Assembly: GCA_013215945.1 (NCBI GenBank)
Contig: JABSOM010000005.1
Location: 124,001 to 188,000 of the forward strand
Reading direction: 5' to 3'
DNA: 64,000 nucleotides
DNA from: Campylobacteraceae bacterium
Lineage (GTDB): Bacteria; Campylobacterota; Campylobacteria; Campylobacterales; Arcobacteraceae
This document shows, piece after piece, positions 4,595 through 22,640 of this stretch; position 1 is the stretch's first letter; the number at the start of each line of letters is the position of its first letter. The position numbers were made by a program, and so were the translations under genes. Under the pieces are notes generated by a model, which worked only from the letters and a program-made list of their open reading frames with translations, was not told where the DNA came from and searched no databases.

Positions 4595-5386
4595 ATGAAT
4601 ATTATAAATTTTGAAAATGTAAATATTGGGTATGACTATAGGTATTTAATTTTAAAAAACTTAAATTTAAAAATACAAGAGGGTGAACATTGGGTTATTT
4701 TAGGAGGCAATGGTTCAGGAAAAACAACCTTACTGAAACTTATGTCTAATGATTTGTACCCCAATACGTATACTGCTTTTAAAAAAGAAGTTTTTGATCA
4801 AGAGCGTTGGGAAATTAGTAAATTGAAAAATCATTTAGGAATAGTAAGCACTAATTTACAAAATGATTTTATCTATAATGCGAGAAATTCAAGTGCTTTT
4901 GAGATTATTATGTCTGGTTTTTATTCAAGTTTAGGGAAAATGCTTCATCATATATATACAAAAGAACAAATACAAAAAACAAATGATATTTTAAAAGAAT
5001 TGTCTATTGAAAACTTGAAAGATAAAAAAGCCTATGAAATGTCAACGGGAGAGTTACGTAAGTGTTTAATTGCAAGAGCGTTAATACATCAACCAAAAGC
5101 TTTGATATTAGATGAACCAAGTACAGGCTTAGATATTAAAGCACAACATGAGTTTACTAAGCTTTTACGAAAATTAAGTAAAAAATTAAGCATTATTATT
5201 ATTACACATCATTTGGAAGAAATATTTGAAGAAATCACACATGTAGCACTTTTAGCCAAGAATCAAATATATAAACAAGGAAAAAAAGAAGACTTACTTA
5301 ACTCTAGTAATATTTCCAAGGTATTTGATATGAAACTTGAACTTGGAAAGAACAATCAAAGATACTTTATAAAAAATATTTTATGA
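4595..5386 (+). CDS. ABC transporter ATP-binding protein, single domain (ModF-like)
   Basis: 263 residues: Walker A GGNGSGKTT near residue 37, signature MSTGELRKCLIARA, Walker B ALILDEPSTGLD and H-loop IIITHHLEE. The ATG follows TTGAAGGATTAAA. No permease or binding protein lies next to it, so it is an orphan ATPase. The closest general type is the soluble ModF/YlmA group ('GEHWVILGGNGSGKTTLL'). Its last 6 bases overlap the convergent EamA gene. The transported substrate, if any, is unknown. Confidence 0.85.
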   Translation: MNIINFENVNIGYDYRYLILKNLNLKIQEGEHWVILGGNGSGKTTLLKLMSNDLYPNTYTAFKKEVFDQERWEISKLKNHLGIVSTNLQNDFIYNARNSSAFEIIMSGFYSSLGKMLHHIYTKEQIQKTNDILKELSIENLKDKKAYEMSTGELRKCLIARALIHQPKALILDEPSTGLDIKAQHEFTKLLRKLSKKLSIIIITHHLEEIFEEITHVALLAKNQIYKQGKKEDLLNSSNISKVFDMKLELGKNNQRYFIKNIL

Positions 5387-6262
5387 TTTTTTCTTAATCT
5401 GCTGTAATAATAGTCCCATTATTATTAAGCATAGACCTATTAGCGTTGAAAAAAGAATTTTTTCATCTAATATTAAATAAATAAGAAGTAATGAAATAAA
5501 GGGTGCTATGAAGATCAAATTAGCAATTTTTGACGTTGAAATTGTTTCTTTCATCGCTTTTAGCCAAAATAAGAATGTAATACTCATTTCAAATAAACCT
5601 ACATAAAAAGCCCCTAGTAAACCTTTTATTTCTGGAAGAATAAAACCCTCATCAAAATAAATATAAAGTAAAATAAAAGGAAAAGAGAGTAAAAAATTAC
5701 AAAATAGACCTACAACTGGGTCTACAGTGATTTTTGTATTATAAATCCAATACAAGGCCCAAAATACAGTTGAACTTAAAGCCAAAATTATTCCTAGCGT
5801 ACTTGTAAACTCTAAAGAAAAAGGACTGCCTTTGGTGGCAATAATTAATACTCCAAAATAACAAATAATTCCAGCTATAAAATCTCTTAGATGTAATTTT
5901 TGTTTTAATAATGGAATGGATAAATAACTTAAAGTTAATGCCCACGTATAGTTTATTGTTTGTGCTTCTTGAACAGGTAATAAATCATAGGCTTTAAACA
6001 ATACAAGATAAAATAAAAAAGGATTTAAAATAGCTAAAAATACTATCATTAAAAAGTTATTTTTAATATGTATAAGTATAAGAGCTGTTTTGTTCTGATA
6101 TATTAATATTGAAAACAAGGTGAGAATCGAAAAAAGTGCTGCATAAAACAGTAGTTGAGAGGGGTTTAAATATTCCAATGATATTTTAAATGCACTTGCT
6201 ACTGTGGACCATAGAAATACAGCTATTAATGCATAAATATACGCAAGCCTTTGATTCTTCAT
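5381..6262 (-). CDS. EamA/DMT-family permease
   Basis: 293 residues with ten predicted helices in two EamA halves. It starts MKNQRLAYIYALIAVFLWST and has FWALYWIYNTK at the junction of the halves. The C-terminus is cytoplasmic and Lys-rich (QQIKKKS). It is transcribed away from the hydroxyproline operon, so the 6263-6410 gap holds divergent promoters. A metabolite carrier of the DMT superfamily; co-location with the amino-acid catabolic genes may hint at amino-acid export, but this is only inference. Confidence 0.87.
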   Translation of the reverse strand: MKNQRLAYIYALIAVFLWSTVASAFKISLEYLNPSQLLFYAALFSILTLFSILIYQNKTALILIHIKNNFLMIVFLAILNPFLFYLVLFKAYDLLPVQEAQTINYTWALTLSYLSIPLLKQKLHLRDFIAGIICYFGVLIIATKGSPFSLEFTSTLGIILALSSTVFWALYWIYNTKITVDPVVGLFCNFLLSFPFILLYIYFDEGFILPEIKGLLGAFYVGLFEMSITFLFWLKAMKETISTSKIANLIFIAPFISLLLIYLILDEKILFSTLIGLCLIIMGLLLQQIKKKS

Positions 6263-6582: not shown

Positions 6583-8166
6583 TTGAGTATACATGGCAAA
6601 AACTTTATTGGAAATGATTTATCAGCACAAGGCGATAAAAGTAATAAAATATATGATATTAACAGCAATATTGCATTAGAAGGTGATTTTAGTCATGCAA
6701 CTTCTAATGAAGTTTCTAAAGCTTTAGATTTAGCATCTAGTGCTTTTGTTGTGTATAAACAAAAATCACAAATACAAAGAGCCGTTTTTTTAGAAACAAT
6801 TGCGGAAGAAATAATGAATTTGGGTGATGAGTTAATACTTAGAGTAATGAGTGAATCTAATCTTCCAAGACCAAGACTTGAAGGTGAGAGAGGCCGTACA
6901 ATAGGACAACTTAAAATGTTCGCAAATTTATTAAGAGAGGGTTCTTGGGTTGAAGCTACAATAGATACAGCCTTGCCAAATAGAGCTCCCCTTCCTAGAA
7001 ATGATTTAAGAAAAATGCTTAGACCTTTGGGTGTAGTATCTGTTTTTGAAGCTAGTAATTTTCCTTTGGCTTTTTCTTGTGCAGGAGGAGATACAGCATC
7101 TGCATTAGCAGCAGGATGTCCAGTAATTGTAAAAGCACATAGCTCACATTCAGGAACTTCTGAATTAGTAGCAGGTGCTATTATTAAAGCAGTAATAAAA
7201 TGTGATATGCCTTCTGGTACTTTTTCTATGTTACATGGTAGCGGACGTGTGGTAGGACAGCAAATTGTAATGCATGATGCTGTTTGTGCTGTAGGGTTTA
7301 CGGGATCTACTTATGCAGGAATGGAACTGTATAAATTGGCAAATACACGAAAACACCCCATTCCAGTTTTCGCAGAAATGGGAAGTATTAATCCGTGTTT
7401 ATTTTTACCATCAGCTTTAAATGATACAAAAAAATTAGCAGCTTCTTATGCTTTTTCTATTACTTTGGGTGCAGGACAGTTTTGTACGAACCCTGGACTT
7501 ATTATTGCACTAAAAGATGAAAAACTAGAAGAATTTAAGAAAGATTTAGCGCAAGAAATAGAAAAAGTAAAACCTGCAACTATGCTTTCAAGCTCAATTG
7601 CTAAAGCCTATAAAGAAAATAAAGACAAAGCAATAGCTCAACATGGAACAACAGTAATTGCACAGGCTTTAGAAGATGGAATGATTAGTGAAGGAAAAGC
7701 TATTGTTGCAAGTGTAGCAGGAAGCGAGTTTATTAAAAATCCTACTTTACAAGAAGAAGTATTCGGACCTTATTCACTCTTAGTTGAATGTGAAAATAAA
7801 GAAGAGTTAATGAACGTTATTACGTCTTTAGAAGGGCAATTAACTGCTACTGTTATGGGTGAAGATCATGAAATGGATGAGTTTTCGTCTTTTATTTATG
7901 CGCTTGAAAACAAAGCGGGAAGAATATTATTTAATTCTGTTCCCACAGGTGTTGAAGTATGTCATTCTATGCAACATGGAGGTCCTTTCCCAGCTGCAAC
8001 AGATGCAAGATTTACCTCTGTAGGTACTGGAGCAATTAAACGATTTGTTAGACCTGTTTGTTTTCAAGATTGCCCAGTTTCACTTTTACCTCTAGAATTA
8101 AGAGATGAAAATGAATTAAAAATTTTAAGAATGGTAGATGATTCTTATTCAAATGAAAGTCTATGA
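6583..8166 (+). CDS. Alpha-ketoglutarate semialdehyde dehydrogenase (NADP-dependent aldehyde dehydrogenase)
   Basis: 527 residues of the long KGSADH-type aldehyde dehydrogenases. Catalytic Cys301 lies in GAGQFCTNPG and the general-base Glu in FAEMGSINP. It oxidises 2,5-dioxopentanoate to 2-oxoglutarate, the last step of the 4-hydroxyproline pathway (and of some sugar-acid pathways). The start is a TTG with AAAAGGATTTAA upstream, 12 bases after the deaminase relic. It overlaps the next gene by ATGA, so the two are translationally coupled. With the upstream deaminase broken, its substrate supply is unclear. Confidence 0.85.
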   Translation: MSIHGKNFIGNDLSAQGDKSNKIYDINSNIALEGDFSHATSNEVSKALDLASSAFVVYKQKSQIQRAVFLETIAEEIMNLGDELILRVMSESNLPRPRLEGERGRTIGQLKMFANLLREGSWVEATIDTALPNRAPLPRNDLRKMLRPLGVVSVFEASNFPLAFSCAGGDTASALAAGCPVIVKAHSSHSGTSELVAGAIIKAVIKCDMPSGTFSMLHGSGRVVGQQIVMHDAVCAVGFTGSTYAGMELYKLANTRKHPIPVFAEMGSINPCLFLPSALNDTKKLAASYAFSITLGAGQFCTNPGLIIALKDEKLEEFKKDLAQEIEKVKPATMLSSSIAKAYKENKDKAIAQHGTTVIAQALEDGMISEGKAIVASVAGSEFIKNPTLQEEVFGPYSLLVECENKEELMNVITSLEGQLTATVMGEDHEMDEFSSFIYALENKAGRILFNSVPTGVEVCHSMQHGGPFPAATDARFTSVGTGAIKRFVRPVCFQDCPVSLLPLELRDENELKILRMVDDSYSNESL

Positions 8167-9133: not shown

Positions 9134-10138
9134 ATGTCATGTAAAACATTTTTTTGCGTAGATGCACATACTTGTGGAAACCCTGTTAGAGTTATTTTAG
9201 GAGGAGCACCTTTATTAAAAGGTGCTAATATGAGTGAAAAAAGGCAGCACTTTTTAAAAGAATTTGATTGGATTAGAACAGGGCTTATGTTTGAACCACG
9301 TGGTCATGATATGATGAGTGGAACAATAATATTTGAGCCAAGCAGCGATGATTTTGATGTATCTATTCTATTTATTGAAACAAGTGGGTGTTTACCTATG
9401 TGTGGACATGGAACAATTGGAACGGTTACTGTATTAATTGAAAAAGAAATAATTACTCCTAAAACACAAGGAGTATTGAGAATAGAAACTCCTGCTGGTT
9501 TGGTAATTGCAACATATAAAAAAGATGAAATGAACAGAGTTAAATCTGTAAAAATCGTTAATGTTCCTTCTTTTTTGCACTCACAGAACTTAAGTATAGA
9601 GTGTGAAGAACTGGGTGAGCTAAAATTTGATGTAGCTTATGGTGGAAACTTTTACGCCATTATTGATCCTCAAAAAAACTTTTCAGGTATTGAAAATTTT
9701 ACAGCAGCAGCTTTAATTTCAATGAGTAAAAAATTAAGAGATAAAATCAATGAAAAATATACTTTTATTCATCCTCTTAATGAAACCATTAATGGACTGT
9801 CTCATCTTGAATGGACAGGAAAAACAATAGATTCTAGCTCAAGTGCACGTAATGCTGTTTTTTATGGAGACAAAGCTATTGACAGATCACCTTGTGGAAC
9901 AGGAACATCTGCACGAATGGCGCAGTTATACGCAAAAGGAGAACTAAAACAAGGGGATGAATTTATTCATGAAAGTTTTATTGGTTCTAAATTTATAGGT
10001 CGCATTGAAGAAGAAATAAAATTAGGTAAATTTAATGCAATCATTCCTTCTGTTGAGGGATGGGCAAAAATCACAGGTCTAAATACTATTACTATTGATG
10101 ATGATGATCCTTATGCTCACGGTTTTGTGGTAATTTAA
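9134..10138 (+). CDS. 4-hydroxyproline 2-epimerase (proline racemase family)
   Basis: 334 residues. Both catalytic cysteines of the proline racemase fold are present: Cys90 in MCGHGTIG and Cys254 in DRSPCGTGTSARM. The two-Cys arrangement means racemisation or epimerisation rather than dehydration, and the RSPCGTGTSA form is usual in hydroxyproline epimerases (trans-4-hydroxy-L-proline to cis-4-hydroxy-D-proline). The ATG follows TAGGAGAAACT. One base separates it from the D-amino-acid dehydrogenase, its expected next enzyme. Confidence 0.85.
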   Translation: MSCKTFFCVDAHTCGNPVRVILGGAPLLKGANMSEKRQHFLKEFDWIRTGLMFEPRGHDMMSGTIIFEPSSDDFDVSILFIETSGCLPMCGHGTIGTVTVLIEKEIITPKTQGVLRIETPAGLVIATYKKDEMNRVKSVKIVNVPSFLHSQNLSIECEELGELKFDVAYGGNFYAIIDPQKNFSGIENFTAAALISMSKKLRDKINEKYTFIHPLNETINGLSHLEWTGKTIDSSSSARNAVFYGDKAIDRSPCGTGTSARMAQLYAKGELKQGDEFIHESFIGSKFIGRIEEEIKLGKFNAIIPSVEGWAKITGLNTITIDDDDPYAHGFVVI

Positions 10139-11476: not shown

Positions 11477-11534
11477 GCTTAATATAAGTCTTACTATGAG
11501 ATAATTTTTATTAGGTAGTACTAAAAGTAGTACT
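11477..11534 (+). promoter_or_regulatory. Promoter with GTAGTACT direct-repeat operator (transporter operon)
   Basis: An extended -10, TGAGATAAT (11497-11505), is followed nine bases later by GTAGTACT, AAAA and GTAGTACT (11515-11534). The repeats would cover the transcription start and early leader, a position suited to repression. The block from TATAAGT to the operator is nearly identical upstream of putA. The rest of the 11388-11625 gap holds a 17-codon ATG frame at about 11430 (probably not a gene) and an AAAGGAGATGG site with no good start. Confidence 0.65.
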
Positions 11535-11625
11535 TATTTTTTTAAATAAATATTAATCTTAAAATAAAGGAGATGGAACAACATCGTTAAATTAGGACTA
11601 AACATATTACACAAATAAAGGAAAA

Positions 11626-12450
11626 ATGATGAATATAGTAAAAAAATTGGCGTTTTTAGCAGTATCGGTTTTAGCATTTGGGGCTACAAGTGCAAGTGCA
11701 GACAAGTTGGATAAAATTCTTTCTAAGGGTACAATTAGATGTGGAGTTGTTCTTGATTTCCCACCAATGGGATACAGAGATGCGAAAAATAATCCAGCAG
11801 GGTTTGATGTTGAATATTGTAAAGATTTAGCAAAAGCTTTGGGTGTTAAATTAGAGCTTAAATCTATGTCTTTTGCTCAAAGACTTCCAGCATTAAATGC
11901 AGGAAAAGTGGATGTTGTAATTGGATCAACGTCTGATACATTACAAAGAGCTAAATCAGCTGGTTTCACAATGCCTTATTTTGTATTTAAATTACAAGCT
12001 ATGGTTAAAAAAGATTCTGGAATTAAAGAATTTAAAGACTTAAAAGGTAAAAAAATTACTGCTGCTTTAAGTACAACTCCTGAAACTGAATTTTTGAAAA
12101 ATGCTAAAGCAAATGGTTGGGATTCATCAAACTATTTTTCTTCTAAAAAAGAAAGTGATACTCACTTAGCACTTTTACAAGGTAAAGCAGATGCAATTAT
12201 TACAACAGATACTACTATTGTTGAATTATTAAAACTTCCTAAGTACAAAGATTATAAAGCAGGTCCTTTTGTTCCTGGATTTGATGATTTTGTATCAATT
12301 ATTGTAAAAAGAACAGAATATGGAATGATTAATTACATGAACTTATTTATTCACCAACAAGTAAGATCTGGAAGATATAAAGAACTTAACAAAATGTTTT
12401 ACGGAAATAGTCCTGTTAGAAAATTAACTGTTGATGGTATTTATTACTAA
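11626..12450 (+). CDS. Polar amino-acid ABC transporter, periplasmic substrate-binding protein
   Basis: 274 residues with a Sec signal peptide ending ...AFGATSASA before DKLDKILSKG. The SBP_bac_3 fold is clear: IRCGVVLDFPPMGYRD, PAGFDVEYCKDLAKALG, DVVIGSTSDTLQRAK. Two ATGs are adjacent (11626 and 11629) after AAAGGAAAA; either can start the protein. The gene heads a transporter operon inside the hydroxyproline cluster, so proline, hydroxyproline or their betaines are the likely ligands. It is followed by a small hairpin that can lower expression of the membrane genes. Confidence 0.9.
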   Translation: MMNIVKKLAFLAVSVLAFGATSASADKLDKILSKGTIRCGVVLDFPPMGYRDAKNNPAGFDVEYCKDLAKALGVKLELKSMSFAQRLPALNAGKVDVVIGSTSDTLQRAKSAGFTMPYFVFKLQAMVKKDSGIKEFKDLKGKKITAALSTTPETEFLKNAKANGWDSSNYFSSKKESDTHLALLQGKADAIITTDTTIVELLKLPKYKDYKAGPFVPGFDDFVSIIVKRTEYGMINYMNLFIHQQVRSGRYKELNKMFYGNSPVRKLTVDGIYY

Positions 12451-12478
12451 AAATTAAGAGCTTTTGCTCTTGATTTTT
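12450..12478 (+). terminator. Hairpin between binding-protein and permease genes
   Basis: AAGAGC-TTTT-GCTCTT with flanking A and T tracts and ATTTTT after it forms a short terminator-like stem. In this position it probably gives partial termination or mRNA stabilisation, so that the binding protein is made in excess over the permeases. Confidence 0.6.
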
Positions 12479-12497
12479 AAACAAAGAAGGATTAGTA

Positions 12498-13172
12498 ATG
12501 TTTGATTTTGATTACACATTTCACTGGATAACCGTCTGGAACGTTTTTCCCGAGATGTTAAGTGCTGCAATGGTTACAATAGAAGTTGCAGTTATATCTA
12601 TGATTGTTGGTTTGTTTTTCGCTGTTTTTTTATCCTTAGGAAAAGACAGTTCAAATGAATTATATAGAACACCCAGTATTATTTGGATTGAGATTGCAAG
12701 AAATACACCTGCATTGTTTCAAATATACATGGCATATTTTGGTTTAGGAGCATTTGGTATTCATTTAAGTCCTTATTTGGCAGTAATGATGGCGCTTATT
12801 TTTAATAACGCAGGTTATTTAGCTGAAACATTAAGAGGAGGATTTGCATCAATACCACATACTCAAATGGCATCATCAAGATCTTTAGGTATGACTACTT
12901 TTCAAGCCTATAGATATATTATTTTACCTCAGGTTTTTAAAGTGGTATATCATCCAATGACAAATCAAATGATTTGGTCAATATTAATGACATCTTTAGG
13001 TACTTTGGTTGGAATGTTAGAACTTACAGGGAAAACTGATCAATTACAATCTCTGTCTTTTAGAACCTTTGAATTTTATTTAGTAGCAGCTGTAATGTAT
13101 TTTGTTATTGCAAAAGGTACACTGCTTTTAGCAAAATTATTAGCACATAAAATATTTAAAGGAGATGCATAA
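12498..13172 (+). CDS. Amino-acid ABC transporter permease (HisM family)
   Basis: 224 residues with five hydrophobic helices. The family EAA-type loop reads ETLRGGFASIPHTQMASSRSLGM. Start ATG 12498 has AGAAGGATTAGT upstream. It ends on the base where the second permease starts, so the two are coupled and form the heteromeric channel in the inner membrane. Confidence 0.9.
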   Translation: MFDFDYTFHWITVWNVFPEMLSAAMVTIEVAVISMIVGLFFAVFLSLGKDSSNELYRTPSIIWIEIARNTPALFQIYMAYFGLGAFGIHLSPYLAVMMALIFNNAGYLAETLRGGFASIPHTQMASSRSLGMTTFQAYRYIILPQVFKVVYHPMTNQMIWSILMTSLGTLVGMLELTGKTDQLQSLSFRTFEFYLVAAVMYFVIAKGTLLLAKLLAHKIFKGDA

Positions 13173-13894
13173 TGACTAATAAACAAATAAAATATCTTAT
13201 TTATAGTTCAATTTTTTTATATGCTGTTTATCAAACTGTAGTATCAGTAAAAGCATCGTCTTTAACATATTATGATTTAGTATTTTTATTAGAAGGATTA
13301 GAGCGAACGATTTACATTTCTTTTGTTTCTATTGTAATTGGAACATTTTTTGGAATAATATTTGGTTGGATGAAGGTTAATATGGGAACCTTTGGAAATA
13401 TAATATTAAGTGGTTTTTTGGATATTTTACGTTCAGTTCCCTTAATTATTCAACTTATTTTATTTTATTCTTTTATGGGAATTTTAGAAATTGAAATATC
13501 TGTTTTTTGGGTAGGAGCTATTATTTTATCTGCTTATACTTCTGCTTTTGTAACAGAAGTAGTACGTGCAGGAATTGAATGTGTCCCTGAAACAACAAGA
13601 AGAGCGGCCAGATCCTTAGGAATGACGTATTGGCAAGATTACAGATATATTGTTTTTCCCTTAGGTCTTAGAGCAGTATTCCCTTCATGGATATCAATTG
13701 TTTTATCTGTTATTAAAGATTCAGCATTGATTTCTGTTATTGGGTACTTAGAGTTGTTGAAAACAACAGAAGAATTAATAGCAAAAACAAATGAAGCACT
13801 GTTATTATTATTAGGAATTGGTTTGTTTTATTTTATTATTTCATATCCTATTTCATTGTATGCAGCTAAGTTAGAAAGGAAATTAAAAGTATGA
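13172..13894 (+). CDS. Amino-acid ABC transporter permease (HisM/GlnP family)
   Basis: 240 residues with five or six helices and a permease loop VVRAGIECVPETTRRAARSLGM. Its ATG shares one base with the stop of the previous permease, and its stop overlaps the ATPase start by 4 bases, so the three genes are translated together. ETTRRAARSLG matches the EAA consensus for ATPase contact. Confidence 0.9.
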   Translation: MTNKQIKYLIYSSIFLYAVYQTVVSVKASSLTYYDLVFLLEGLERTIYISFVSIVIGTFFGIIFGWMKVNMGTFGNIILSGFLDILRSVPLIIQLILFYSFMGILEIEISVFWVGAIILSAYTSAFVTEVVRAGIECVPETTRRAARSLGMTYWQDYRYIVFPLGLRAVFPSWISIVLSVIKDSALISVIGYLELLKTTEELIAKTNEALLLLLGIGLFYFIISYPISLYAAKLERKLKV

Positions 13895-14616
13895 TTGAAT
13901 TAAAGAAAGTACATAAGTCTTATGGAGATTTAGAAGTGTTAAAAGGTATTGATTTAACAGTTAAAAAAGGAGAAGTTCTTTCCGTTATTGGAGGTTCTGG
14001 TTCTGGAAAATCTACAATGCTTTATTGTATAAACGCTATTGAAAGTATTCAAAAAGGCGAAGTTTTAGTCGATGGAATTTCTGTTCACGATAAAAGTACT
14101 AATATTAATACCTTAAGACAAAAGATTGGAATGGTTTTTCAACAATGGAATTCTTTTCCTCATTTGACTGTATTAGAAAATGCGGCACTTTCTCCACAAA
14201 TTGTATTGGGAAAAAGCAAAGCAGAAGCAGAAAAAATTGCAAAAGAACAGCTTGATCATGTGGGATTAGGAGATAAGTTTAATGTTTATCCTGGTCGTAT
14301 GTCAGGTGGGCAACAACAGCGTCTTGCTATTGCGCGTGCTTTAGCTATGGAGCCTGAATACATGCTCTTTGATGAAATTACATCTGCTTTAGATCCTGAA
14401 TTAGTAGGAGAAGTACTAGATACCTTAAGACTTTTAAGAAAAGAAGGAATGACAATGATATGTGTTACTCACGAAATTGCATTTGCAAGAGAAGTATCAG
14501 ATAATGTTGCTTTTTTCCATAAGGGTGTTATTGAAGAATTTGGACCTCCTTCTCAGGTTATTTCAAATCCACAAAAAGAAAGAACACAACAATTCTTATC
14601 AAAAGTACTACAATAA
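13891..14616 (+). CDS. Amino-acid ABC transporter ATP-binding protein (GlnQ-like)
   Basis: 241 residues: Walker A GGSGSGKST, Q-loop VFQQWNSFPH, signature MSGGQQQRLAIARAL, Walker B MLFDEITSALDPE and H-loop VTHEIAFAREV. It has the full length and motif set of polar amino-acid transporter ATPases and completes the four-gene importer. Note that Walker B reads DEITSALD where DEPTSALD is usual; a Pro-to-Ile change there is tolerated in several family members. Confidence 0.92.
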   Translation: MIELKKVHKSYGDLEVLKGIDLTVKKGEVLSVIGGSGSGKSTMLYCINAIESIQKGEVLVDGISVHDKSTNINTLRQKIGMVFQQWNSFPHLTVLENAALSPQIVLGKSKAEAEKIAKEQLDHVGLGDKFNVYPGRMSGGQQQRLAIARALAMEPEYMLFDEITSALDPELVGEVLDTLRLLRKEGMTMICVTHEIAFAREVSDNVAFFHKGVIEEFGPPSQVISNPQKERTQQFLSKVLQ

Positions 14617-14627
14617 TATATATCGAA

Positions 14628-14692
14628 TTTATACGAAACACTCAAGGTTTCGTATAAATATATTTCATTCTTTTTTTAAAAAGAGTGAAATA
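14628..14692 (+). terminator. Two consecutive strong stem-loops after the transporter operon
   Basis: The first (14628-14658) is a perfect 12-bp stem, TTTATACGAAAC / GTTTCGTATAAA, with a 7-nt loop. The second (14661-14692) pairs TATTTCATTCTTTTT with AAAAAGAGTGAAATA with one wobble and almost no loop. They lie between the ATPase gene and the enolase-family gene. Terminator or processing roles are likely; the first could also be a palindromic operator for the downstream gene. Confidence 0.55.
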
Positions 14693-14712
14693 TGTTTATA
14701 CAAAGGAAAACT

Positions 14713-15819
14713 ATGAAAATTACAAATATTTTAGTATATCAAGTAGATTTACCCTTACATGAAGGTAGATACTCTTGGGCCAGTGGTAAGTATGTTGATG
14801 TTTTTGATTCAACTATTGTATGTATACAAACAGATACATCTTATATGGGGTGGGGAGAAAATTGTCCTTTAGGGCCATTTTATTTACCTGCTCATGCAAA
14901 AGGTTGTAGAGCTGCAATAGAAGAAATAGCACCTCATTTAATTGGTCTTGATCCCAGTAATTACGGTTTAATTAATAAAGTAATGGATGAAGCATTAATA
15001 GGACACAACTATGCCAAATCAGCTATTGATATGGCATGTTGGGATTTATTGGGTAAAAAAGCTAATTTAAGTATTTGTGATTTAATGGGTGGTAAACATG
15101 GTGATGAAATAGAATTATACAGAGCTATTTCTCAAGAAAGTCCCGAAAAAATGGCAGCAAAAGTATCTGGATATAGAAAAGAAGGATATAGAAAGTTTCA
15201 GTTAAAAGTAGGTGGCGATCCTGTTGAAGATATCAAACGAATTAAAGCTGTTTCAGAAGTATTAAAAGAGGGTGAGACTTTGGTAGCTGATGCTAATACT
15301 GGCTGGAAAGCACATGAAGCAATACGCGTTGTTAATGCAGTTAAAGATATTGATGTTTATATTGAGCAACCTTGTTTGTCTTATGAAGAATCTATTAAAG
15401 TTAGAAACAATACTACACTTCCTTTTATTCTGGATGAAAATATCAATGACATGTTAACGCTTTTACGTGCAGAAAATGACAGTGCAATGGATTGTATTAA
15501 TCTTAAGATTTCAAAAGTAGGGGGACTTACTAAAGCCAGACAAATAAGAGATTTGTGTGTGAACTTAGGCCTTCCTATGACTATTGAGGATTCTTGGGGT
15601 GGAGATATTGTAACCGCAGCTATTTCTCAATTAGCGCATTCAACGCCTGAGCGTTTTAGATTTTCATCAACAGATTTTAATTCTTATACCCCGGTAACAT
15701 TTGCAACAGGAGCTCCTAAAAGAGTAAATGGAAAAATGTCTGCTTCTTCTAAACCTGGACTTGGAATTGAACCTATTATGGATGTTTTGGGAAAAGCTGT
15801 ATATACATGTATTAAATAA
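14713..15819 (+). CDS. Enolase-superfamily enzyme, likely cis-3-hydroxy-L-proline dehydratase (or hydroxyproline-betaine epimerase)
   Basis: About 368 residues of the mandelate racemase/muconate lactonizing group. A lid residue region [10 protein letters not shown] is followed by [19 protein letters not shown]. The barrel residues are a Lys in KFQLKVGG, metal ligands in [13 protein letters not shown] and ILDEN, and the second Lys in NLKISKVGG. The QLK form replaces the common KxK motif, as in the HpbD and cis-3-hydroxyproline dehydratase clade. The neighbours (T3LHyp dehydratase, reductase, PutA) favour dehydration of cis-3-hydroxyproline to 1-pyrroline-2-carboxylate. I chose ATG 14713 because AAAGGAAAACT precedes it; an in-frame ATG 21 bases earlier has no site. 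Confidence 0.65.
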
Positions 15820-15840
15820 AAGCGATTCTCGCTTTTGTTT
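15818..15840 (+). terminator. Short terminator hairpin
   Basis: AAAAGCGA, a 3-nt loop TTC and TCGCTTTT are followed by GTTTGT. The 8-bp stem starts within the stop codon of the enolase-family gene and can end its transcript. Confidence 0.7.
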
Positions 15841-15879
15841 GTATCTAATTATATTACAGATATATTCTAGGATAAGTAT

Positions 15880-15905
15880 TTTTACTGTTTTACTTAACAG
15901 TAAAA
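15880..15905. promoter_or_regulatory. Perfect inverted repeat upstream of trans-3-hydroxyproline dehydratase
   Basis: TTTTACTGTT, six bases, then AACAGTAAAA gives a perfect 10-bp inverted repeat about 70 bases before the dehydratase ATG. It has no T-run and lies 40 bases after the terminator, so an operator is more likely than a second terminator. It may be the site of the adjacent GntR regulator. Confidence 0.45.
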
Positions 15906-15972
15906 TATCCTTTTATACGTGTTATTTTTATAATAAATCAAGCTTTAAAATACTTCTTTAAAAAGAGAGAAA

Positions 15973-17019
15973 ATGAATATATTAAATAAAATAAAACAAA
16001 GTAAATTGTCTTATAACAATGCATTAAGCATTAAAACAATTGATATGCACACAGGAGGCGAGCCTTTACGTGTTATTATTGATGGTTATCCTACGCTTAA
16101 AGGTAAGAGTATTCTAGAAAAAAGAAACTATACCAAAGAACATCTTGATCATTTACGAAAAGCTTTGATGTTTGAACCACGTGGCCATGCAGATATGTAT
16201 GGAGTAATTTTAACTGAAGCTTGTACTAAGGGCTGTGATTTTGGGGTTATTTTTATGCACAATGAAGGGTACAGTACTATGTGTGGACATGCAACTATTG
16301 CCATTACTAAATTAGCAGTACTTCAAAACTGGGTTGAAGTAACTGCTCCAATAACACATATTACAATAGATGCGCCTTGCGGGGTTTTACATGCCAGTGC
16401 TTATATTAATGATGAAGGAGAAGTAACAAAAGTAAGCTTTAAATGCGTACCTTCTTTTGTTCTTGCTTTAAATGAAAAAATCGAAGTTACAGATTTAGGT
16501 GAAATTACTTATGATTTGGCATATGGAGGGGCTTTCTATGCTTATATAGATGCGGACGAAATAGGCCTTAGTTTAGATAAGAATAATTATGATAAAATTA
16601 TCACTTATGGGAAAAAAATTAAAAAAAGTATAGTAGAAACAAAAGACAATATAAAACATCCTTTTGAAGAAGATTTAAGTTTTTTATATGGAACTATTTT
16701 TATCTCAAACAAATCAGACGTACATTCTAAAAATGTTTGTGTATTTGCAAATGGTGAAGTAGATAGAAGTCCCACGGGTTCTGGTGTATCTGGACGTGCA
16801 GCAATACACTATAAAAAAAATGAATTAGAAAAAAATCACTCAATTATTATTGAAAGTATTTTAAATACGAGTTTTGAAGTAAAAGTCCTGGAAGCATTAA
16901 AATATGGACAGTTTGATGCTATTATTCCAGAAGTAAGTGGGAATGCATATATTACAGGCGAGCATAACTTTTTAATAGATGAAGACGATGAATTGAAATA
17001 TGGATTTTTTTTAAGATAA
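15973..17019 (+). CDS. Trans-3-hydroxy-L-proline dehydratase (proline racemase family)
   Basis: 348 residues. The first catalytic Cys is present (Cys104 in MCGHATIAI), but the second is replaced by Thr268 in DRSPTGSGVSGRAA. That Cys/Thr pair is the known mark of trans-3-hydroxy-L-proline dehydratases, which release water to give 1-pyrroline-2-carboxylate, as opposed to the epimerase at 9134 with two Cys. The ATG follows AAAAGAGAGAAA. It is followed after 9 bases by a GntR gene and is probably co-transcribed with it. The product would be reduced to proline by the 8163 enzyme and burnt by PutA. Confidence 0.85.
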   Translation: MNILNKIKQSKLSYNNALSIKTIDMHTGGEPLRVIIDGYPTLKGKSILEKRNYTKEHLDHLRKALMFEPRGHADMYGVILTEACTKGCDFGVIFMHNEGYSTMCGHATIAITKLAVLQNWVEVTAPITHITIDAPCGVLHASAYINDEGEVTKVSFKCVPSFVLALNEKIEVTDLGEITYDLAYGGAFYAYIDADEIGLSLDKNNYDKIITYGKKIKKSIVETKDNIKHPFEEDLSFLYGTIFISNKSDVHSKNVCVFANGEVDRSPTGSGVSGRAAIHYKKNELEKNHSIIIESILNTSFEVKVLEALKYGQFDAIIPEVSGNAYITGEHNFLIDEDDELKYGFFLR

Positions 17020-17028
17020 AGGACTGAA

Positions 17029-17667
17029 ATGCCAGAAAATAAGTTATCAAATAAAGCGTATATAATACTAGAAGAATTTTTAGTAACACTTAAATTAGAA
17101 CCAGGAAAGACCTATTCAGAGAAAGAGTTGATGTCTTTAACTGGAGTCTCTCGTACACCTTTACGAGAAGCTTTACTAAAATTATCTTATGAAAGTTTAA
17201 TAAATATAATTCCACGCCGTGGTATAGAAATATCAGATATTAATATGACAAACCAATTGGCTATTTTAGAAACCAGAAGAGTTTTAGACAGTTTATTAAT
17301 TTCACGAGCGACTAAATATGCTACTACTTTTGAAAAAGAACATATTCAGGAATTTAAAAACCATATGCAAGAAGCCGTTGATGCAAATGATGTGGAAGCA
17401 TTTTTACGTATTGACAAAGAAATGGATAATCTTATTTTTAAAACCGCAAGAAATGAATTTGCAAGTAAGGCTACAAGCCCATTACATGTGAGGTCTAGAC
17501 GCTTTTGGTATTATTTTAAAGGCATAGAAGATTTACAAAAATCGGCAAATACTCATATGAAATTAATTGATGCGATAATAGAAGGTAATGAAAAAGAAGC
17601 CTTACAAATTTCAGATCAGATCATAAATGGTTTGGTAGATGTTGTAAAAAAATATATTAATCTGTAA
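17029..17667 (+). CDS. GntR-family transcriptional regulator, FCD subfamily
   Basis: 212 residues. A winged helix-turn-helix (KELMSLTGVSRTPLREALLKL, then IPRRGIEIS) is followed by an all-helical FCD ligand domain (residues about 80-205) with ETRRVLDSLLI and a late HMKLIDAIIEGNEKEAL helix with His and acidic residues. Proteins of this kind sense organic acids or amino acids and act on palindromic sites. Being in the transcript of the dehydratase, it probably controls the hydroxyproline genes; the palindromes at 6327 and 15880 are candidate sites. Which one it binds is not known. Confidence 0.85.
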   Translation: MPENKLSNKAYIILEEFLVTLKLEPGKTYSEKELMSLTGVSRTPLREALLKLSYESLINIIPRRGIEISDINMTNQLAILETRRVLDSLLISRATKYATTFEKEHIQEFKNHMQEAVDANDVEAFLRIDKEMDNLIFKTARNEFASKATSPLHVRSRRFWYYFKGIEDLQKSANTHMKLIDAIIEGNEKEALQISDQIINGLVDVVKKYINL

Positions 17668-17773
17668 CAAAATATTGCCTTAATCACGAATACACTGTTT
17701 CTGCATATTCTGCTTTAATTGTTACTACTTTCAAATGAGTATTTTTTTGTAATAAGTTTTAATTAAGTTTAAA

Positions 17774-17818
17774 TGTGAAATAATTACTATATTAAAAGTA
17801 GTTTAAAAAGTACTACTT
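17774..17818 (+). promoter_or_regulatory. Promoter and AGTAGT/ACTACT operator of the RHH gene
   Basis: An extended -10, TGAAATAAT (17776-17784), is followed by AAGTAG, 11 bases including AGTAC, then CTACTT (17796-17818). The site combines AGTAGT and AGTACTACT and resembles the operators before the transporter and putA, at the same distance from the -10. It lies 19 bases before the RHH start codon, which fits autoregulation. Confidence 0.6.
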
Positions 17819-17837
17819 AAATTATCTTAGGATTAAA

Positions 17838-18065
17838 ATGGCAAAACTTAAAAACTCTAGAAATATTATTAAAAATGTTATTCAAAAACACGCAAGTGAA
17901 AATAAAAAAGAAATTTCACAAATAACTATTAAAATTGATAAGCGCTTGGATAAAGCCTTGATTATTTTGTCAAAAGAGCTAAACGTGTCTAAGAATAGGC
18001 TTATTGAAGATATTTTATTTGAGAGTGGAATTATTGACGAAGTGGATGAAAATTATGTTGACTAA
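17838..18065 (+). CDS. Ribbon-helix-helix DNA-binding protein (PutA-RHH-like regulator)
   Basis: 75 residues. After a basic N-terminal arm the protein reads ISQITIKIDKRLDKALIILS, then ELNVSKNRLIEDILFESG: a beta strand followed by two helices, the MetJ/Arc/CopG ribbon-helix-helix fold. RHH dimers bind short repeated sites, matching the AGTAGTAC repeats before this gene, the transporter and putA. The PutA encoded downstream lacks an N-terminal RHH domain, so this protein may fill that regulatory role. The ATG follows TTAGGATTAAA. It overlaps the next gene by 11 or more bases. Confidence 0.75.
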   Translation: MAKLKNSRNIIKNVIQKHASENKKEISQITIKIDKRLDKALIILSKELNVSKNRLIEDILFESGIIDEVDENYVD

Positions 18066-18726
18066 AAACAATATTTTTCCTGAAAAAAAGGATGTAGTAG
18101 ATGCTGTACTAAGAGGTATTCTTTGTTCTAAAGAAAATTACACTTCTTGGACTTGTGATGAACTCTACCTTTCAACTGCTCCTAATAATTTTTTAAGAGT
18201 GCATATTGCACAAGAAATTGCCAAATTAGAAGATAAACCAGAGATATTTATGGATGCAACGCTTGCAGATATCTTACGTTGTTCTTTAAGCTCACGTACT
18301 TCGTATAAAGCTTTTATGAAAGATAATAATTTGGCACAAGGAACATTTTGTTTAACTCTTGATGAACGATTTACACATCTTAGTGATAATGATTCTGTAT
18401 CGCGGGTTATAATGAGTATTCAAAATGGGGTTAGAAATGCTCAAGATGAATATAAAAATCAAATTAAAAGAATTTGTATTATGTTAGAGCGAGAAAAAAA
18501 AGAAGATTCAAGTTTGGATTACGGAATATTCGCTTTTTATCTAGATATCTCAAATCTTGCACGAAAAAAAACCCAAAAACGATTGGATGAAATTATTTCC
18601 AGTTTTGATGCTATTGTTTCTTCTCATAATGGACTTACCTCTACATTTAAAAGAGGAGATATTAATATAATTGAAGGTACTGGTGAATGGTGTATCGCTT
18701 GTTATCTAATAGAACCAACTTTCTAA
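18055..18726 (+). CDS. Unrecognised 223-residue partner of the RHH regulator
   Basis: I take ATG 18055 (MLTKNNIFPEKK); 18046 is an equal alternative, and a TTG-like start further up would run through the RHH gene. Either way the start lies inside the end of the RHH gene, so translation is coupled. The protein is soluble, without signal peptide or membrane segment. It has conserved-looking stretches CDELYLSTAPNNFLRVHIAQ, DIRCSLSSRTSYKAFM-like sequence, and FKRGDINIIEGTGEWCIACY near the C-terminus. I do not recognise a family. Its position between regulator and putA suggests a proline-related sensor or accessory factor; that is inference. Confidence 0.7.
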   Translation: MLTKNNIFPEKKDVVDAVLRGILCSKENYTSWTCDELYLSTAPNNFLRVHIAQEIAKLEDKPEIFMDATLADILRCSLSSRTSYKAFMKDNNLAQGTFCLTLDERFTHLSDNDSVSRVIMSIQNGVRNAQDEYKNQIKRICIMLEREKKEDSSLDYGIFAFYLDISNLARKKTQKRLDEIISSFDAIVSSHNGLTSTFKRGDINIIEGTGEWCIACYLIEPTF

Positions 18727-19000
18727 TAAATCTTTTTTCCGTATAATTTTAGGCTTTCATATTTTTTAATTTGAAGCTTCTAAAATTTTTCTACTATATC
18801 TATAAATACTTTTCCCATATATTTATCTAAGCCCAAAATATTCTTATTTGATTAAAACATGACTTTTATCTAAGCATTTCTAAGAAATTTTACTTTATTT
18901 CCACTGTCCAAGATACTTCCTTATTAACATATTTCTTTAACTAGAAAATATAGCTTAAAATTATCATTAAGGAATACTCTTATAAGCTTATTATAAGTAT
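18727..19000. other. AT-rich gap without a gene
   Basis: No coding frame with a ribosome site, no clear hairpin and no RNA gene were seen between the partner gene and the putA promoter. Close to the promoter CTTATAA and TTATAAG form a loose inverted repeat (about 18979-18997). Confidence 0.5.
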
Positions 19001-19043
19001 TACTGTGAGATAATTATTAAAAGGTAGTACTAAAAGTAGTACT
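18988..19043 (+). promoter_or_regulatory. putA promoter with GTAGTACT direct-repeat operator
   Basis: TATAAGTATTACTGTGAGATAAT-like sequence with the extended -10 TGAGATAAT at 19006-19014 is followed after nine bases by GTAGTACT, AAAA, GTAGTACT (19024-19043). Spacing and sequence are the same as before the transporter gene at 11626. The operator covers the expected transcription start. Binding by the RHH protein at 17838 is inferred. Confidence 0.68.
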
Positions 19044-19067: not shown

Positions 19068-22000
19068 ATGGAAAAAAATATTGAGCTTATCAATTCGGCA
19101 ATAAAACTTGCAGCTAAATGGCAAAACAGAGCTACAGAACTTGTAAGTGATTTTGACAGAGTATTTTATATTAAAATGAATAAGATGTTAGAACAGCCAA
19201 AAGACAAGGCTTTGTTAATAGAGTTGATGGATCAATGTTTTAGAGCTGAATCTAATGCTAGAGTTGCTAATCAAATTTGTTTTTTGTTAAAAAAACATGG
19301 AATGGCACATTTTTTTACAACAAAAGATAAAACATTATTATATCTTTTCCAAAACATAGGGAAATACTTACCCAATATCTCTGTTCCTTTATTTGTGAAT
19401 CAAATAAGAGAAGATACTAAAACAGTTGTAATTAAAGGCGAGGAAAAATTTCTTTCTGCTCATTTACAAAAAAGAAAAAAAGAAGGTACAAGAGTTAATA
19501 TTAATCTTATTGGGGAAGTAGTTCTTGGAGAAGAAGAAGCGGGCGAGCGAATGGATAAGTATATTAAAGCTTTAAAAAACCCTGATGTAGATTATTTATC
19601 AATTAAAATTTCTACTATTTTTTCTCAAATTAATCCTTTAGATTTTGATAATACAGTAGATATATTGGTTGAAAAATTAACAAAAATTTATAGAGTGGCT
19701 AAAGAAAACACTTTTATTAATTTTAATGGAAAAAAAGAGTATAAATTTGTAAATCTTGATATGGAAGAGTACAGAGATTTAGCAATTACAGTGGCTGTAT
19801 TTAAAAAGACTCTTGAAAAAGAAGAATTCAAAGATTTGTATGCTGGAATTGTATTACAAGCTTATTTACCTGATTCTTACCTTTGGCAACAAGATTTATG
19901 TGACTGGGCAAGAAACAGAGTTCAAAATGGTGGTTCTGCTATTAAGTTCAGATTGGTTAAAGGTGCTAACATGGAAATGGAAGAAACCGAAGCCTCTCAA
20001 AAACATTGGGAAATGGTTACTTATATAGATAAAGCGGATACAGATTCAAATTACAAACGAATGGTAAATTATGCACTTGATAAAAACAATGCTCAATATA
20101 TGCATATAGGAACAGCTTCTCATAACTTATTTGAATTGGCTTATGCAACTGTATTAGCTGACGATAATAATACGGGGGAATTTCATAGCTTAGAAATGCT
20201 TGAGGGTATGAGTGAATCTGCACGACTTGCTATAAAAGAGATTTCAAAAGAAGTGATTTTATATGCACCTACTGCTTCTAAAGAACAGTTTACCAATGCT
20301 ATTGCTTATTTAGTTAGAAGATTGGATGAAAATACAGGACCTGATAACTTTATAAGATATTCTTTTGGTTTAACAGTGGATTCAAGTGATTGGAAAATGC
20401 AAGAAAAACTTTTTGTAGAAAGTTTTGAAGTAGAAAAAACATCTTTTGTAGGTAGTAAAAGAACACAAAACAGATTAGAAGAAAAATGGAATAAATTTTC
20501 AAATTCTTCTTATGATACAAATTCTTATCATGCTGAAGCAGATACGGATTTTATTTTAAGTAAAAATCATGAGTGGGCACAAAATATTGTTAAAAAATGG
20601 AAAAAATCTAACGCTAGTAAACATGAAATTGCTCCTGTTGTTGTTGGAGGAGAAGATTTAGTAGGTGATCGTAAAATTTATGAGGCTATTGACAAATCAC
20701 AATTTGAAGAAGGTGTTCTTGCTGGTAAATTTGCATTAGCAACAGAAGCTGATATTAAAAAAGCCGTTGACGTTGCAAGAGCAGATAAAGATGGGTGGAG
20801 AGATTTATCTCATGAACAAAGACATGAAGCTTTAAAAAAAGTGGCTATAAAAGTACGTGAGAGAAGAGATGATTTAATTGGGGTTGCAGCTGCTGAAGTT
20901 GGTAAAGTATTTACTGAAACTGATGTAGAAGTATCTGAAGCGATTGATTTTATTGAATTTTATACTCATGCTATAAGACATTTTGATGCTTATGAAAACT
21001 TAGAGTTAAAAGCAAAAGGAGTAGGTGTTGTTGTACCACCTTGGAATTTCCCTATTGCTATTCCTATGGGTGGGGTTGCTGCTTCATTAGCTGCTGGAAA
21101 TACGGTTATTATTAAACCTGCTTCTGTTGCTGCTTTATGTTCTTATGAGATGTGTAAGTGTTTTTGGGATGCTGGAATTTCTAAGAATGTATTACAATTT
21201 TTGCCTTGTCCAGGTGCACTTGCAGGAGAATTTTTAATTCCTAATAAAGATATTGATTTCTTGATTTTAACAGGGGGAGAAGATACGGCTGCTTCTATGT
21301 TAGAAACAAGAAACGATTTGTTTTTATCTGCTGAAACAGGTGGAAAAGATGCGACTATAGTTACTAATATGGCAGATCGAGAACAAGCGGTTAAAAATGT
21401 GTGTTTATCTGCTTTTAAAAACTCAGGGCAAAAATGTAGCGCAACTTCTCTTTTAGTATTAGAAGAAGAAGTTTATAATGATAAAAATTTTAGAAAAGCG
21501 CTAATAGATACTGCAAAATCACTAAATGTAGGATCAATTTGGGATTTTAAAAATGCAATTGGAACCTTGGCTAATAAAGTAAGTGGAAATTTAGAAAAAG
21601 CAATTTCTTCATTAGAAGGCGAAGAAGAATGGGCACTAGAGCCTAAATATGTAAATGATAATCCTTATATGTTAAGTCCAGGAATTAAATGGGGAGTAAG
21701 TGAAGGTAGTTTTATTCATATGAATGAATTATTCGGACCTGTACTAGCTGTTATAAAAGCGTCTGATTTAAAACATGCTGTAAAGATTGTAAATGCTACA
21801 GGTTATGGCTTAACATCTGGAATTGAGTCTTTAGATGAAAGAGAAGTATCGTACTGGAGAGAAAATTTAAAAGCGGGGAATCTTTATATTAATAGAGGAA
21901 CTACGGGTGCTATTGTTTTACGTCAGCCTTTTGGTGGAATGGGAAAATCTGCTATAGGAGCTGGGCGTAAGGCTGGTTTTTATAACTATATTACACAATT

Positions 22001-22640
22001 CGTTGATATTGCTGAAAAAACGCTTCCTAAGGCTAAAAAAGAATATAAAAGTGATTTGAGTTCTTTTCTAAAAAGATGTGCTTCAATATCTTCAAATAAA
22101 AGTGATTTTAATAAATTAGAAGCTGCTTATCAATCGTATGAAGAAAATTATGAAAATGAGTTTTCTCTTGAAAAAGATTATGCGAAAGTTAGAGGAGAAG
22201 ACAATCACTTTAGATACTTACCTTTAAATAAGGTTGTTATTAGAGTAAGTAAAGAAGACAGTATTTTTGAAATAGTATCTAGAATACTAGCTTCTAGAGT
22301 AGCTAAGGTAAGTTTTACAGTTTCAATGAGTGAGGATGCAAATATAAAAGTATTTTTAGAAAATTCTTTAGAACTTTTTTCAAGTTCTGATACTCTTGTT
22401 ATTGAAAATGAAGAATCATTCATTAAAACGATAAAACAATATGAAAGAGTTATTTACTCTAATATTAAAAAAGTATCTTCTGCTGTATTTAAAGAAAGTG
22501 TTAAAACCTTGGTTTTTATCATAAGACAAGAGCCTTTAATGGAGGGTAGATTAGAATTATTGAATTATTTTTCTGAACAAAGTATTTCTCATTCATATCA
22601 CAGATATGGGAATATTGGGGCAAGAGAAGCAAGTAAATAA
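19068..22640 (+). CDS. putA: Bifunctional proline dehydrogenase / L-glutamate gamma-semialdehyde dehydrogenase
   Basis: 1190 residues. The N-terminal half is the FAD-dependent proline dehydrogenase barrel (KISTIFSQINPLDFD, FRLVKGANMEMEE, HIGTASHNLFELAYA, and RYSFG). From about residue 530 comes the aldehyde dehydrogenase with VVPPWNFPIAIPMGG, Glu near 754 in SAETGGKDA, and catalytic Cys near 789 in SGQKCSATS. A C-terminal domain of about 200 residues follows. There is no N-terminal RHH domain, unlike E. coli PutA, so this PutA cannot repress its own gene by that route. It converts proline to glutamate and donates electrons to quinone at the membrane. The ATG follows CTAAGGAATAATA. Confidence 0.96.
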   Translation: MEKNIELINSAIKLAAKWQNRATELVSDFDRVFYIKMNKMLEQPKDKALLIELMDQCFRAESNARVANQICFLLKKHGMAHFFTTKDKTLLYLFQNIGKYLPNISVPLFVNQIREDTKTVVIKGEEKFLSAHLQKRKKEGTRVNINLIGEVVLGEEEAGERMDKYIKALKNPDVDYLSIKISTIFSQINPLDFDNTVDILVEKLTKIYRVAKENTFINFNGKKEYKFVNLDMEEYRDLAITVAVFKKTLEKEEFKDLYAGIVLQAYLPDSYLWQQDLCDWARNRVQNGGSAIKFRLVKGANMEMEETEASQKHWEMVTYIDKADTDSNYKRMVNYALDKNNAQYMHIGTASHNLFELAYATVLADDNNTGEFHSLEMLEGMSESARLAIKEISKEVILYAPTASKEQFTNAIAYLVRRLDENTGPDNFIRYSFGLTVDSSDWKMQEKLFVESFEVEKTSFVGSKRTQNRLEEKWNKFSNSSYDTNSYHAEADTDFILSKNHEWAQNIVKKWKKSNASKHEIAPVVVGGEDLVGDRKIYEAIDKSQFEEGVLAGKFALATEADIKKAVDVARADKDGWRDLSHEQRHEALKKVAIKVRERRDDLIGVAAAEVGKVFTETDVEVSEAIDFIEFYTHAIRHFDAYENLELKAKGVGVVVPPWNFPIAIPMGGVAASLAAGNTVIIKPASVAALCSYEMCKCFWDAGISKNVLQFLPCPGALAGEFLIPNKDIDFLILTGGEDTAASMLETRNDLFLSAETGGKDATIVTNMADREQAVKNVCLSAFKNSGQKCSATSLLVLEEEVYNDKNFRKALIDTAKSLNVGSIWDFKNAIGTLANKVSGNLEKAISSLEGEEEWALEPKYVNDNPYMLSPGIKWGVSEGSFIHMNELFGPVLAVIKASDLKHAVKIVNATGYGLTSGIESLDEREVSYWRENLKAGNLYINRGTTGAIVLRQPFGGMGKSAIGAGRKAGFYNYITQFVDIAEKTLPKAKKEYKSDLSSFLKRCASISSNKSDFNKLEAAYQSYEENYENEFSLEKDYAKVRGEDNHFRYLPLNKVVIRVSKEDSIFEIVSRILASRVAKVSFTVSMSEDANIKVFLENSLELFSSSDTLVIENEESFIKTIKQYERVIYSNIKKVSSAVFKESVKTLVFIIRQEPLMEGRLELLNYFSEQSISHSYHRYGNIGAREASK

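Follow-up and report, generated by a model that had tools for sequence, protein, structure and literature searches.

The DNA considered here is a stretch of 64,000 nucleotides (nt), hereafter the window, corresponding to positions 124,001 to 188,000 of contig JABSOM010000005.1 in the 3.24-Mb assembly GCA_013215945.1 of a Campylobacteraceae bacterium from the family Arcobacteraceae. Profile scans of the window proteins reveal a hydroxyproline/proline cluster, which includes three genes on the forward strand. The first, rhh (17838-18065), codes for a free-standing protein of 75 amino acids (aa) with the features of a ribbon-helix-helix (RHH) domain. It overlaps by 11 nt with a second gene (18055-18726, from an ATG at 18055), whose product of 223 aa is referred to as the partner. 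The third, putA (19068-22640), encodes a protein of 1190 aa comprising proline dehydrogenase and delta-1-pyrroline-5-carboxylate (P5C) dehydrogenase. Matches above cut-off identify genes for a Delta(1)-pyrroline-2-carboxylate reductase at 8163, a 4-hydroxyproline epimerase at 9134 and a cis-3-hydroxy-L-proline dehydratase at 14692, with the remaining members of the cluster being an ABC transporter, a GntR-FCD regulator, rhh, the partner gene and putA. The transporter is of polar amino-acid type and lies wholly on the forward strand (solute-binding protein gene sbp, 11626-12450, SBP_bac_3 at E 3e-32; permease genes 12498-13172 and 13172-13894; ATPase gene 13891-14616). Its first permease is recognised by BPD_transp_1, and the second permease and the ATPase by position and sequence. 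The GntR-FCD regulator (17029-17667, forward strand) shows both of the domains from which it takes its name.

Three promoters in this cluster, all on the forward strand, carry an extended -10 element followed by a pair of GTANTAC-type boxes. The element reads TGAGATAAT both at the sbp promoter (11497-11505) and at the putA promoter (19006-19014), and TGAAATAAT at the rhh promoter (17776-17784). Operator 1 (11514-11534; the operators are given without strand), upstream of the sbp operon, contains GTAGTAC boxes at 11515-11521 and 11527-11533, whilst operator 3 (19023-19043), upstream of putA, contains the same boxes at 19024-19030 and 19036-19042; both show the exact two-box pattern and score 29.4 bits. 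Operator 2 (17797-17817), putatively autoregulatory and kept in relatives, is weaker at 17.3 bits. It reads GTAGTTT-AAAAA-GTACTAC, thus combining a degenerate box with two mismatches (17798-17804) and an exact one (17810-17816). A weight matrix trained on rhh upstream regions, the window's own region included, exceeds 12 bits at three places only in the 64 kb, and these are the three operators. At 11513 and 19022 there is an exact repeat of 22 base pairs (bp), AGGTAGTACTAAAAGTAGTACT, with eight repeated 22-mers existing in the window as a whole. The shorter AGTAGTAC occurs six times against 1.07 expected, a number reached by none of 100 shuffles, and three of the six copies fall outside the three operators. 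The initial annotation of this DNA had proposed a shared operator at the transporter, RHH gene and putA promoters, each with an extended -10, and this is confirmed by the sequence and the weight matrix alike. Its estimate of some 9-11 nt between the -10 and the first box is accurate for sbp and putA (9 nt each) but not for rhh (13 nt). The unit, which it described as direct or inverted repeats of GTAGTACT, is better given as a pair of GTANTAC palindromes with their centres 12 bp apart.

The motif is not local to the window, but is kept upstream of rhh across genera. For 64 distinct rhh upstream regions of at most 120 bp, drawn from Arcobacteraceae and Sulfurospirillum-like genomes (each RHH protein being counted once, regions with N or shorter than 50 bp left out, and close relatives retained), the best match to GTANTAC-N5-GTANTAC has no mismatch in 46, one in 8, two in 6, three in 2 and four in 2. 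At most two mismatches are therefore seen in 60 of the 64, where dinucleotide shuffles lead one to expect 0.92. Pairs of exact halves are spaced by 12 bp in 46 cases, all 46 of them at the operator position, with two other spacings found once each. The consensus is RGTANTACYWWWWRGTANTACY, each box being palindromic in itself about a free central base. The distance from the -10 to the site is similarly constrained: amongst the 29 exact-site rhh promoters in which the search pattern found an extended -10, 20 have a distance of 16 nt and all fall within 14-18 nt. An upstream TTAAGTTT element resembles the -35 consensus of C. jejuni, TTTAAGTnTT (PMC3824568). By eye, the site but not the promoter layout is retained in the Sulfurospirillum-like regions.

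Across whole genomes, the presence of the motif tracks the rhh gene. rhh and the partner gene co-occur in the same 44 of 150 relatives (a count that excludes three weak extra rows in the rhh search and three in the partner search), and 35 of these 44 carriers were searched for exact sites, with G000, G006, G040, G063, G071, G074, G125, G139 and G144 left out. An exact site is present in 33 of the 35 carriers, compared with 7 of 35 family members without rhh, the genomes of which are smaller as a rule. In total, the carriers hold 44 exact sites (18 for a reversed control) and the non-carriers 11 (16 for the control). The rhh/putA cluster accounts for 35 of the 44 carrier sites, spread over 32 genomes and including the transporter site of G001, a near relative of the window genome (partner 97% identical), as well as the sites of second rhh-partner pairs in G008 and G046. 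Five genomes that match putA but have no rhh (G007, G028, G030, G038 and G048, the match being partial in G028 and G030) are without an exact site. Where putA is divergent from rhh, as in five g19 genomes (L091, L097, L100, L102 and L107), the site is found at the putA promoter; L107 has a site beside rhh as well, and the other four have none there. All five carry one more site, of 15-16 bits in four and 20 bits in L107, that of L097 being situated between an EamA-like gene and a branched-chain-type transporter operon.

Within the window's own genome, the exact two-box pattern is found three times, namely at two of the operators and once within a coding frame (C8:68569). Allowing one mismatch yields 18 matches against 15 for the reversed control, and such matches are therefore mostly noise. 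One of them (C8:129417-129435) lies some 100 bp upstream of proA, a gene of proline biosynthesis, and is followed by a third, degenerate box 12 bp on. proA was nevertheless not retained as a target, the site belonging to this noise-level class and being traced, with a stricter pattern amongst the 35 carriers, only to G001. Off-locus sites within coding frames, whether exact (L245, L246, L248, L249 and L250) or with one mismatch (L256, L258 and L260), were taken as chance; a further off-locus site (L251) is upstream of a gene of unknown kind. The initial annotation had held that a repeat occurring widely upstream of unrelated genes would speak against its proposal, and no such spread is seen in the genome-wide pattern searches of this genome and its relatives.

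The off-locus matches do include a recurrent theme. In five genomes they fall in the region between gltB and the TRAP binding-protein gene dctP, an orientation of gltB and dctP that was seen in those five. A comparison of 30 carriers and 30 non-carriers, in which a site was required to reach at least 14 bits with at most two mismatches, places one upstream of gltB (glutamate synthase) in 14 of the 30 carriers and in none of the 21 usable non-carriers. Without the five discovery genomes (G003, G005, G036, G046 and G070), the figure for carriers is 9 of 25. Eight of the 30 non-carriers have no gltB match, a partial match (L313, in G022) and a weaker second match (L314, in G054) were not counted, three non-carrier regions are shorter than 420 bp (103, 335 and 252), and six loci (two from carriers, four from non-carriers) were scanned whole. 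The sites are 97-208 nt from the gltB start. In G021, a site precedes the gene for an AgcS-type amino-acid carrier.

With regard to the proteins, the rhh product is modelled with an RHH-like fold of beta-alpha-alpha order. The monomer model (pLDDT 73) displays helices at 35-48 and 52-63 after an extended segment, the strand itself not being assigned in the monomer. Foldseek and VIA lists for this model consist mostly of RHH chains, all of them weak (no E below 0.1, Z of at most 4.8). The RHH domain of E. coli PutA (2ay0_C) is the top aligned chain at Z 4.8, a score equalled by ParG and others, and Arc and CopG are further matches. The window protein is matched by PHROG 582, an Arc-like repressor (E 4e-5); Pfam RHH_1, which reaches E 2.4e-4 at best, is found in 7 of 21 relatives but not in the window protein itself. 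The predicted strand follows a Q-x-T/S-x-K pattern, with Q28 and K32 present in 40 of 40 sequences and residue 30 being T in 32 and S in 8; alternating strand positions contact DNA in Arc and PutA. The fold matches are compatible with the initial description of this 75-residue product as a ribbon-helix-helix protein. The tandem-box layout of the site would suit RHH dimers on neighbouring subsites, which is the mode of binding predicted here.

The partner, on profile evidence, is a homologue of the PD-(D/E)XK nucleases that falls outside every described family. Searching Pfam, NCBIfam and the PDB sequences with it was unproductive, and Pfam applied to 28 members produced scattered matches, of which the most frequent occurs in 10 (best E 0.0081) and the one with the lowest E (5.9e-4) in 3. 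Amongst 397 genomes of the phylum, a profile search finds 38 with a match at E <=1e-4, five of these having distant relatives only. Distant relatives of about 205 aa possess an intact D...ExK motif in five of five (alignment A5). Four of these five were reached by the profile search (E 8.9e-11, 4.8e-7, 6.5e-7 and 3.6e-6) and the fifth by a single sequence (E 9.2e-5), whilst hhalign relates the partner to the motif-bearing relatives with a probability of 99.2. The PD-(D/E)XK status of the relatives rests on that motif, in five of five, and on weak Pfam matches (best HSDR_N_2, E 5.3e-4, below cut-off). They are also matched by the PADLOC 'Tin' profile (E 6.2e-6 to 6.5e-11), which gives the partner itself no match and which forms their only link to Tin of phage P2. 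Proteins of this kind, with the intact motif and Tin matches (L204 and L207-L210), may constitute an undescribed nuclease family; tblastn of a motif-bearing relative against phage records and an A5 scan of viral contigs returned nothing useful.

In the partner family proper, the catalytic glutamate is retained in none of 41 members of the combined alignment (its position is occupied by S in 32, by T in 6 and by C, A or D in one member each), and because of this loss the partner is probably not an active nuclease. The lysine of ExK is kept in 25 of the 41, and the aspartate position, D91, is D in 3. For the AlphaFold2 model (pLDDT 93.6, pTM 0.91), the top five rows of the VIA list are restriction-endonuclease-like or NucC, with Z of 7.0, 6.5, 6.3, 6.0 and 5.6. 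What had initially been termed an unknown coupled partner can now be described, by profile evidence, as a catalytically degenerate PD-(D/E)XK homologue.

A putA match exists in all 44 carriers, as opposed to 10 of 106 non-carriers; the one in G063 is partial and located on a different contig from rhh. putA lies within 42 of 43 rhh-bearing stretches, the 43rd being a 10-kb contig, and within 35 of 44 in a second set that includes many of the same genomes; of the nine stretches lacking it there, two contain a second copy of the partner gene, the remaining seven being short or cut. Amongst 87 rhh-partner gene pairs, with starts chosen by script and some genomes counted twice, 75 overlap, 47 of them by 8 nt. 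The second pairs of G008 (L315:2368-7880) and G046 (L316) have an operator of their own, and that of G008 precedes genes for CtlX and ornithine cyclodeaminase, both above cut-off, and an arginase-like gene just under it. As a separate observation, in many family genomes (e.g. L072:6690-7559) a relative of the EamA-like transporter at 5381-6262 of the window is found directly upstream of rhh; in the window this gene is more than 11 kb away. The PutA of the window had been held to lack an RHH domain, and Pfam indeed finds Pro_dh (132-430) and Aldedh (550-976) only. In length, its N-terminus does not exceed that of the solved structure of PutA 5ur2 (residue 89 vs 83), which is not known to carry an RHH domain, and the fused N-terminal RHH that characterises type C PutA was not found in it.

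Direct evidence covers the conservation of the motif, the co-occurrence of the genes, an RHH-like fold and the homology and motif loss of the partner. The reading that we favour, with a probability of about 0.62, is of a put regulator split between two proteins, in which the RHH protein would repress from a site just downstream of the -10 and the partner would tune it. An RHH dimer would bind each palindromic GTANTAC box, so that two dimers sit side by side, 12 bp apart. Positioned 9-18 nt downstream of the -10, the operator would overlap the transcription start and its occupation would lead to repression, with the rhh-partner pair, putA and the amino-acid ABC transporter as predicted targets, joined in many relatives by glutamate synthase (gltB). 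The co-translated partner would bind the RHH protein rather than cut DNA, and may relay a metabolic signal, for which proline or a near product is the likeliest candidate, repression being lifted under conditions that allow proline to be catabolised. A tuning of repression by the partner is suggested by the location of the operator after the -10, by the presumed autoregulation, by the sensor-less RHH protein and by the co-translation of its partner. Proline as the ligand is a guess, made because it is the common denominator of the partner gene contexts. Binding, repression, complex formation and ligand are all matters that we infer from sequence. A separate RHH protein that acts with a partner over proline/hydroxyproline uptake and PutA had already been envisaged in the initial annotation, and operator conservation, co-occurrence with rhh and linkage to putA lend this design support.

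A number of observations weigh against such a regulator. Four of the 64 rhh regions match the motif poorly, two with three mismatches and two with four. The gltB site is absent in 16 of 30 carriers, the window's genome and G001 included. G024 has a good two-box site (L252:2600) upstream of a D-amino-acid dehydrogenase gene, but no match for rhh, the partner or putA. Divergent partner copies without an adjoining RHH match are found in G002 (L113) and G003 (L112); both are near amino-acid (ABC) transporter genes, that of G002 being also near genes with, by eye, CtlX-like and ornithine cyclodeaminase-like N-termini. The distances of rhh and partner sequences correlate (0.81), for which common descent alone would suffice, and as genomes and regions share ancestry the counts given above are not independent. 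Amongst the weak Pfam matches of the RHH set, an NTPase domain is the most frequent, being found in 14 of 21 with a best E of 0.0036. As for the partner, its VIA scores, all with Z below 8, may reflect a common arrangement or coincidence, with methyltransferases filling much of the list at Z of about 5, and its best Foldseek rows are methyltransferases at E 4.5e-3, none being significant (no E <=0.001).

Several of these data can also be read in other ways. The boxes might serve as operators for the neighbouring GntR-FCD regulator, or for some other protein of that type, as FadR/FCD-type GntR proteins bind GT-N3-AC, a form that GTANTAC fits. The gene adjoins rhh in the window, and G024 combines an orthologue of it (76% identical) and the site with no rhh match. 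Nevertheless, an orthologue (at least 68% identity) is present in just 12 of 44 rhh carriers, yet the exact motif is found at the rhh cluster in 32 of 35 tested. Moreover, the rhh site persists without this gntR, including in three genomes outside the family (L109-L111), where other FCD regulators remain candidates. The GntR-FCD protein is consequently a less likely binder than the RHH protein, was set aside as a general binder because of its presence in those 12 carriers only, and seems to us quite unlikely to own the boxes. It is also conceivable that the pair is a type II toxin-antitoxin module, with an RHH antitoxin and a nuclease toxin, that regulates itself and is merely lodged by putA, given the overlapping genes with the RHH gene first, the palindromic repeats at their own promoter and the nuclease homology of the partner. 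We regard this as very unlikely: the catalytic glutamate is absent in 41 of 41, putA accompanies the pair in 44 of 44 carriers, the operator is common to metabolic genes, partner copies without an RHH neighbour exist, and plasmid records hold no partner match at E 1e-3. It was the catalytic loss and the absence of a plasmid match that led to a plain toxin-antitoxin system being set aside.

The repeat could, furthermore, fold into a hairpin in the leader RNA and work by attenuation rather than as a DNA operator, since it is downstream of the -10, hence probably transcribed, and its halves can pair. Pairing is, however, not favoured by the central bases of the two boxes, which amongst 47 exact sites are complementary in 13, where composition predicts 12.4, and identical in 21, where it predicts 12.3, and the gltB sites are 97-208 nt from the start. 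Having been set aside for want of any excess of complementary central bases, the hairpin appears highly improbable. Finally, the RHH protein and its partner may activate, or the partner may be a corepressor rather than an anti-repressor. The direction of control is unreadable from sequence alone, and the strongly fixed distance between the -10 and the boxes at rhh promoters, noted above, would suit such a role. The site is, on the other hand, downstream of the -10, and proteins bound there usually block initiation or escape. We consider activation or corepression unlikely.

Under the split regulator that we favour, proline users amongst the Arcobacteraceae and Sulfurospirillum-like bacteria, whose PutA has no self-regulating RHH domain, would acquire a proposed regulator, and the same RHH module may serve in fused or free-standing form. 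A conserved, undescribed protein family is likewise brought to light, in which a degenerate nuclease homologue is proposed as a transcriptional coregulator. Within the literature surveyed, mainly open-access titles and abstract openings, there is no report of free-standing RHH control of putA. A further-reaching and decidedly tentative idea is that an ancient toxin-antitoxin-like pair was domesticated, the RHH protein becoming a lineage-wide proline/glutamate repressor, the dead nuclease a proline-responsive switch, and a paralogous pair being retuned for the degradation of citrulline, ornithine and arginine to proline. This is put forward because RHH transcription factors have been proposed to descend from antitoxins (PMC8987985).

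When compared with known systems, the partner resembles PD-(D/E)XK nucleases, including the proteins of the PADLOC 'Tin' profile, in its profile homology and in the restriction-endonuclease-like rows that top its structural list, and differs from them in the loss of the ExK glutamate (41 of 41), in the aspartate (D in 3 of 41) and in having no Tin match. Type II toxin-antitoxin operons with an RHH antitoxin have overlapping genes and autoregulation by palindromic repeats. The present pair is similar in its two overlapping genes, RHH first, and its palindromic repeats, and dissimilar in that the partner is without the catalytic glutamate and sites also occur at metabolic genes. In MetJ/Arc-type RHH repressors (Arc, CopG and MetJ), neighbouring dimers occupy tandem short subsites, an arrangement predicted here along with the shared fold. 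Distinct from these are the GTANTAC box, the 12-bp spacing, a conserved partner of unrelated fold and the lack of a fused sensor domain, such as that of the RHH protein NikR. Separate control of a bifunctional PutA is exemplified by PruR of Pseudomonas aeruginosa, an AraC/XylS-family activator of putA, which thus belongs to another protein family, with no partner mentioned in the abstract of that paper (PMC5879082). In type C PutA, described together with bifunctional PutAs in PMC5293562, the RHH domain and the enzyme form a single polypeptide; in the present case an equivalent logic would fall to two small proteins. The trifunctional (type C) PutA of E. coli places an RHH DNA-binding module over the put genes, as is predicted for the system described here. 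In the latter, the RHH protein has a gene of its own, PutA is without an RHH domain and a second protein is coupled. The operator also differs, being GTTGCA for E. coli PutA and a pair of GTANTAC boxes at the promoters of this cluster.

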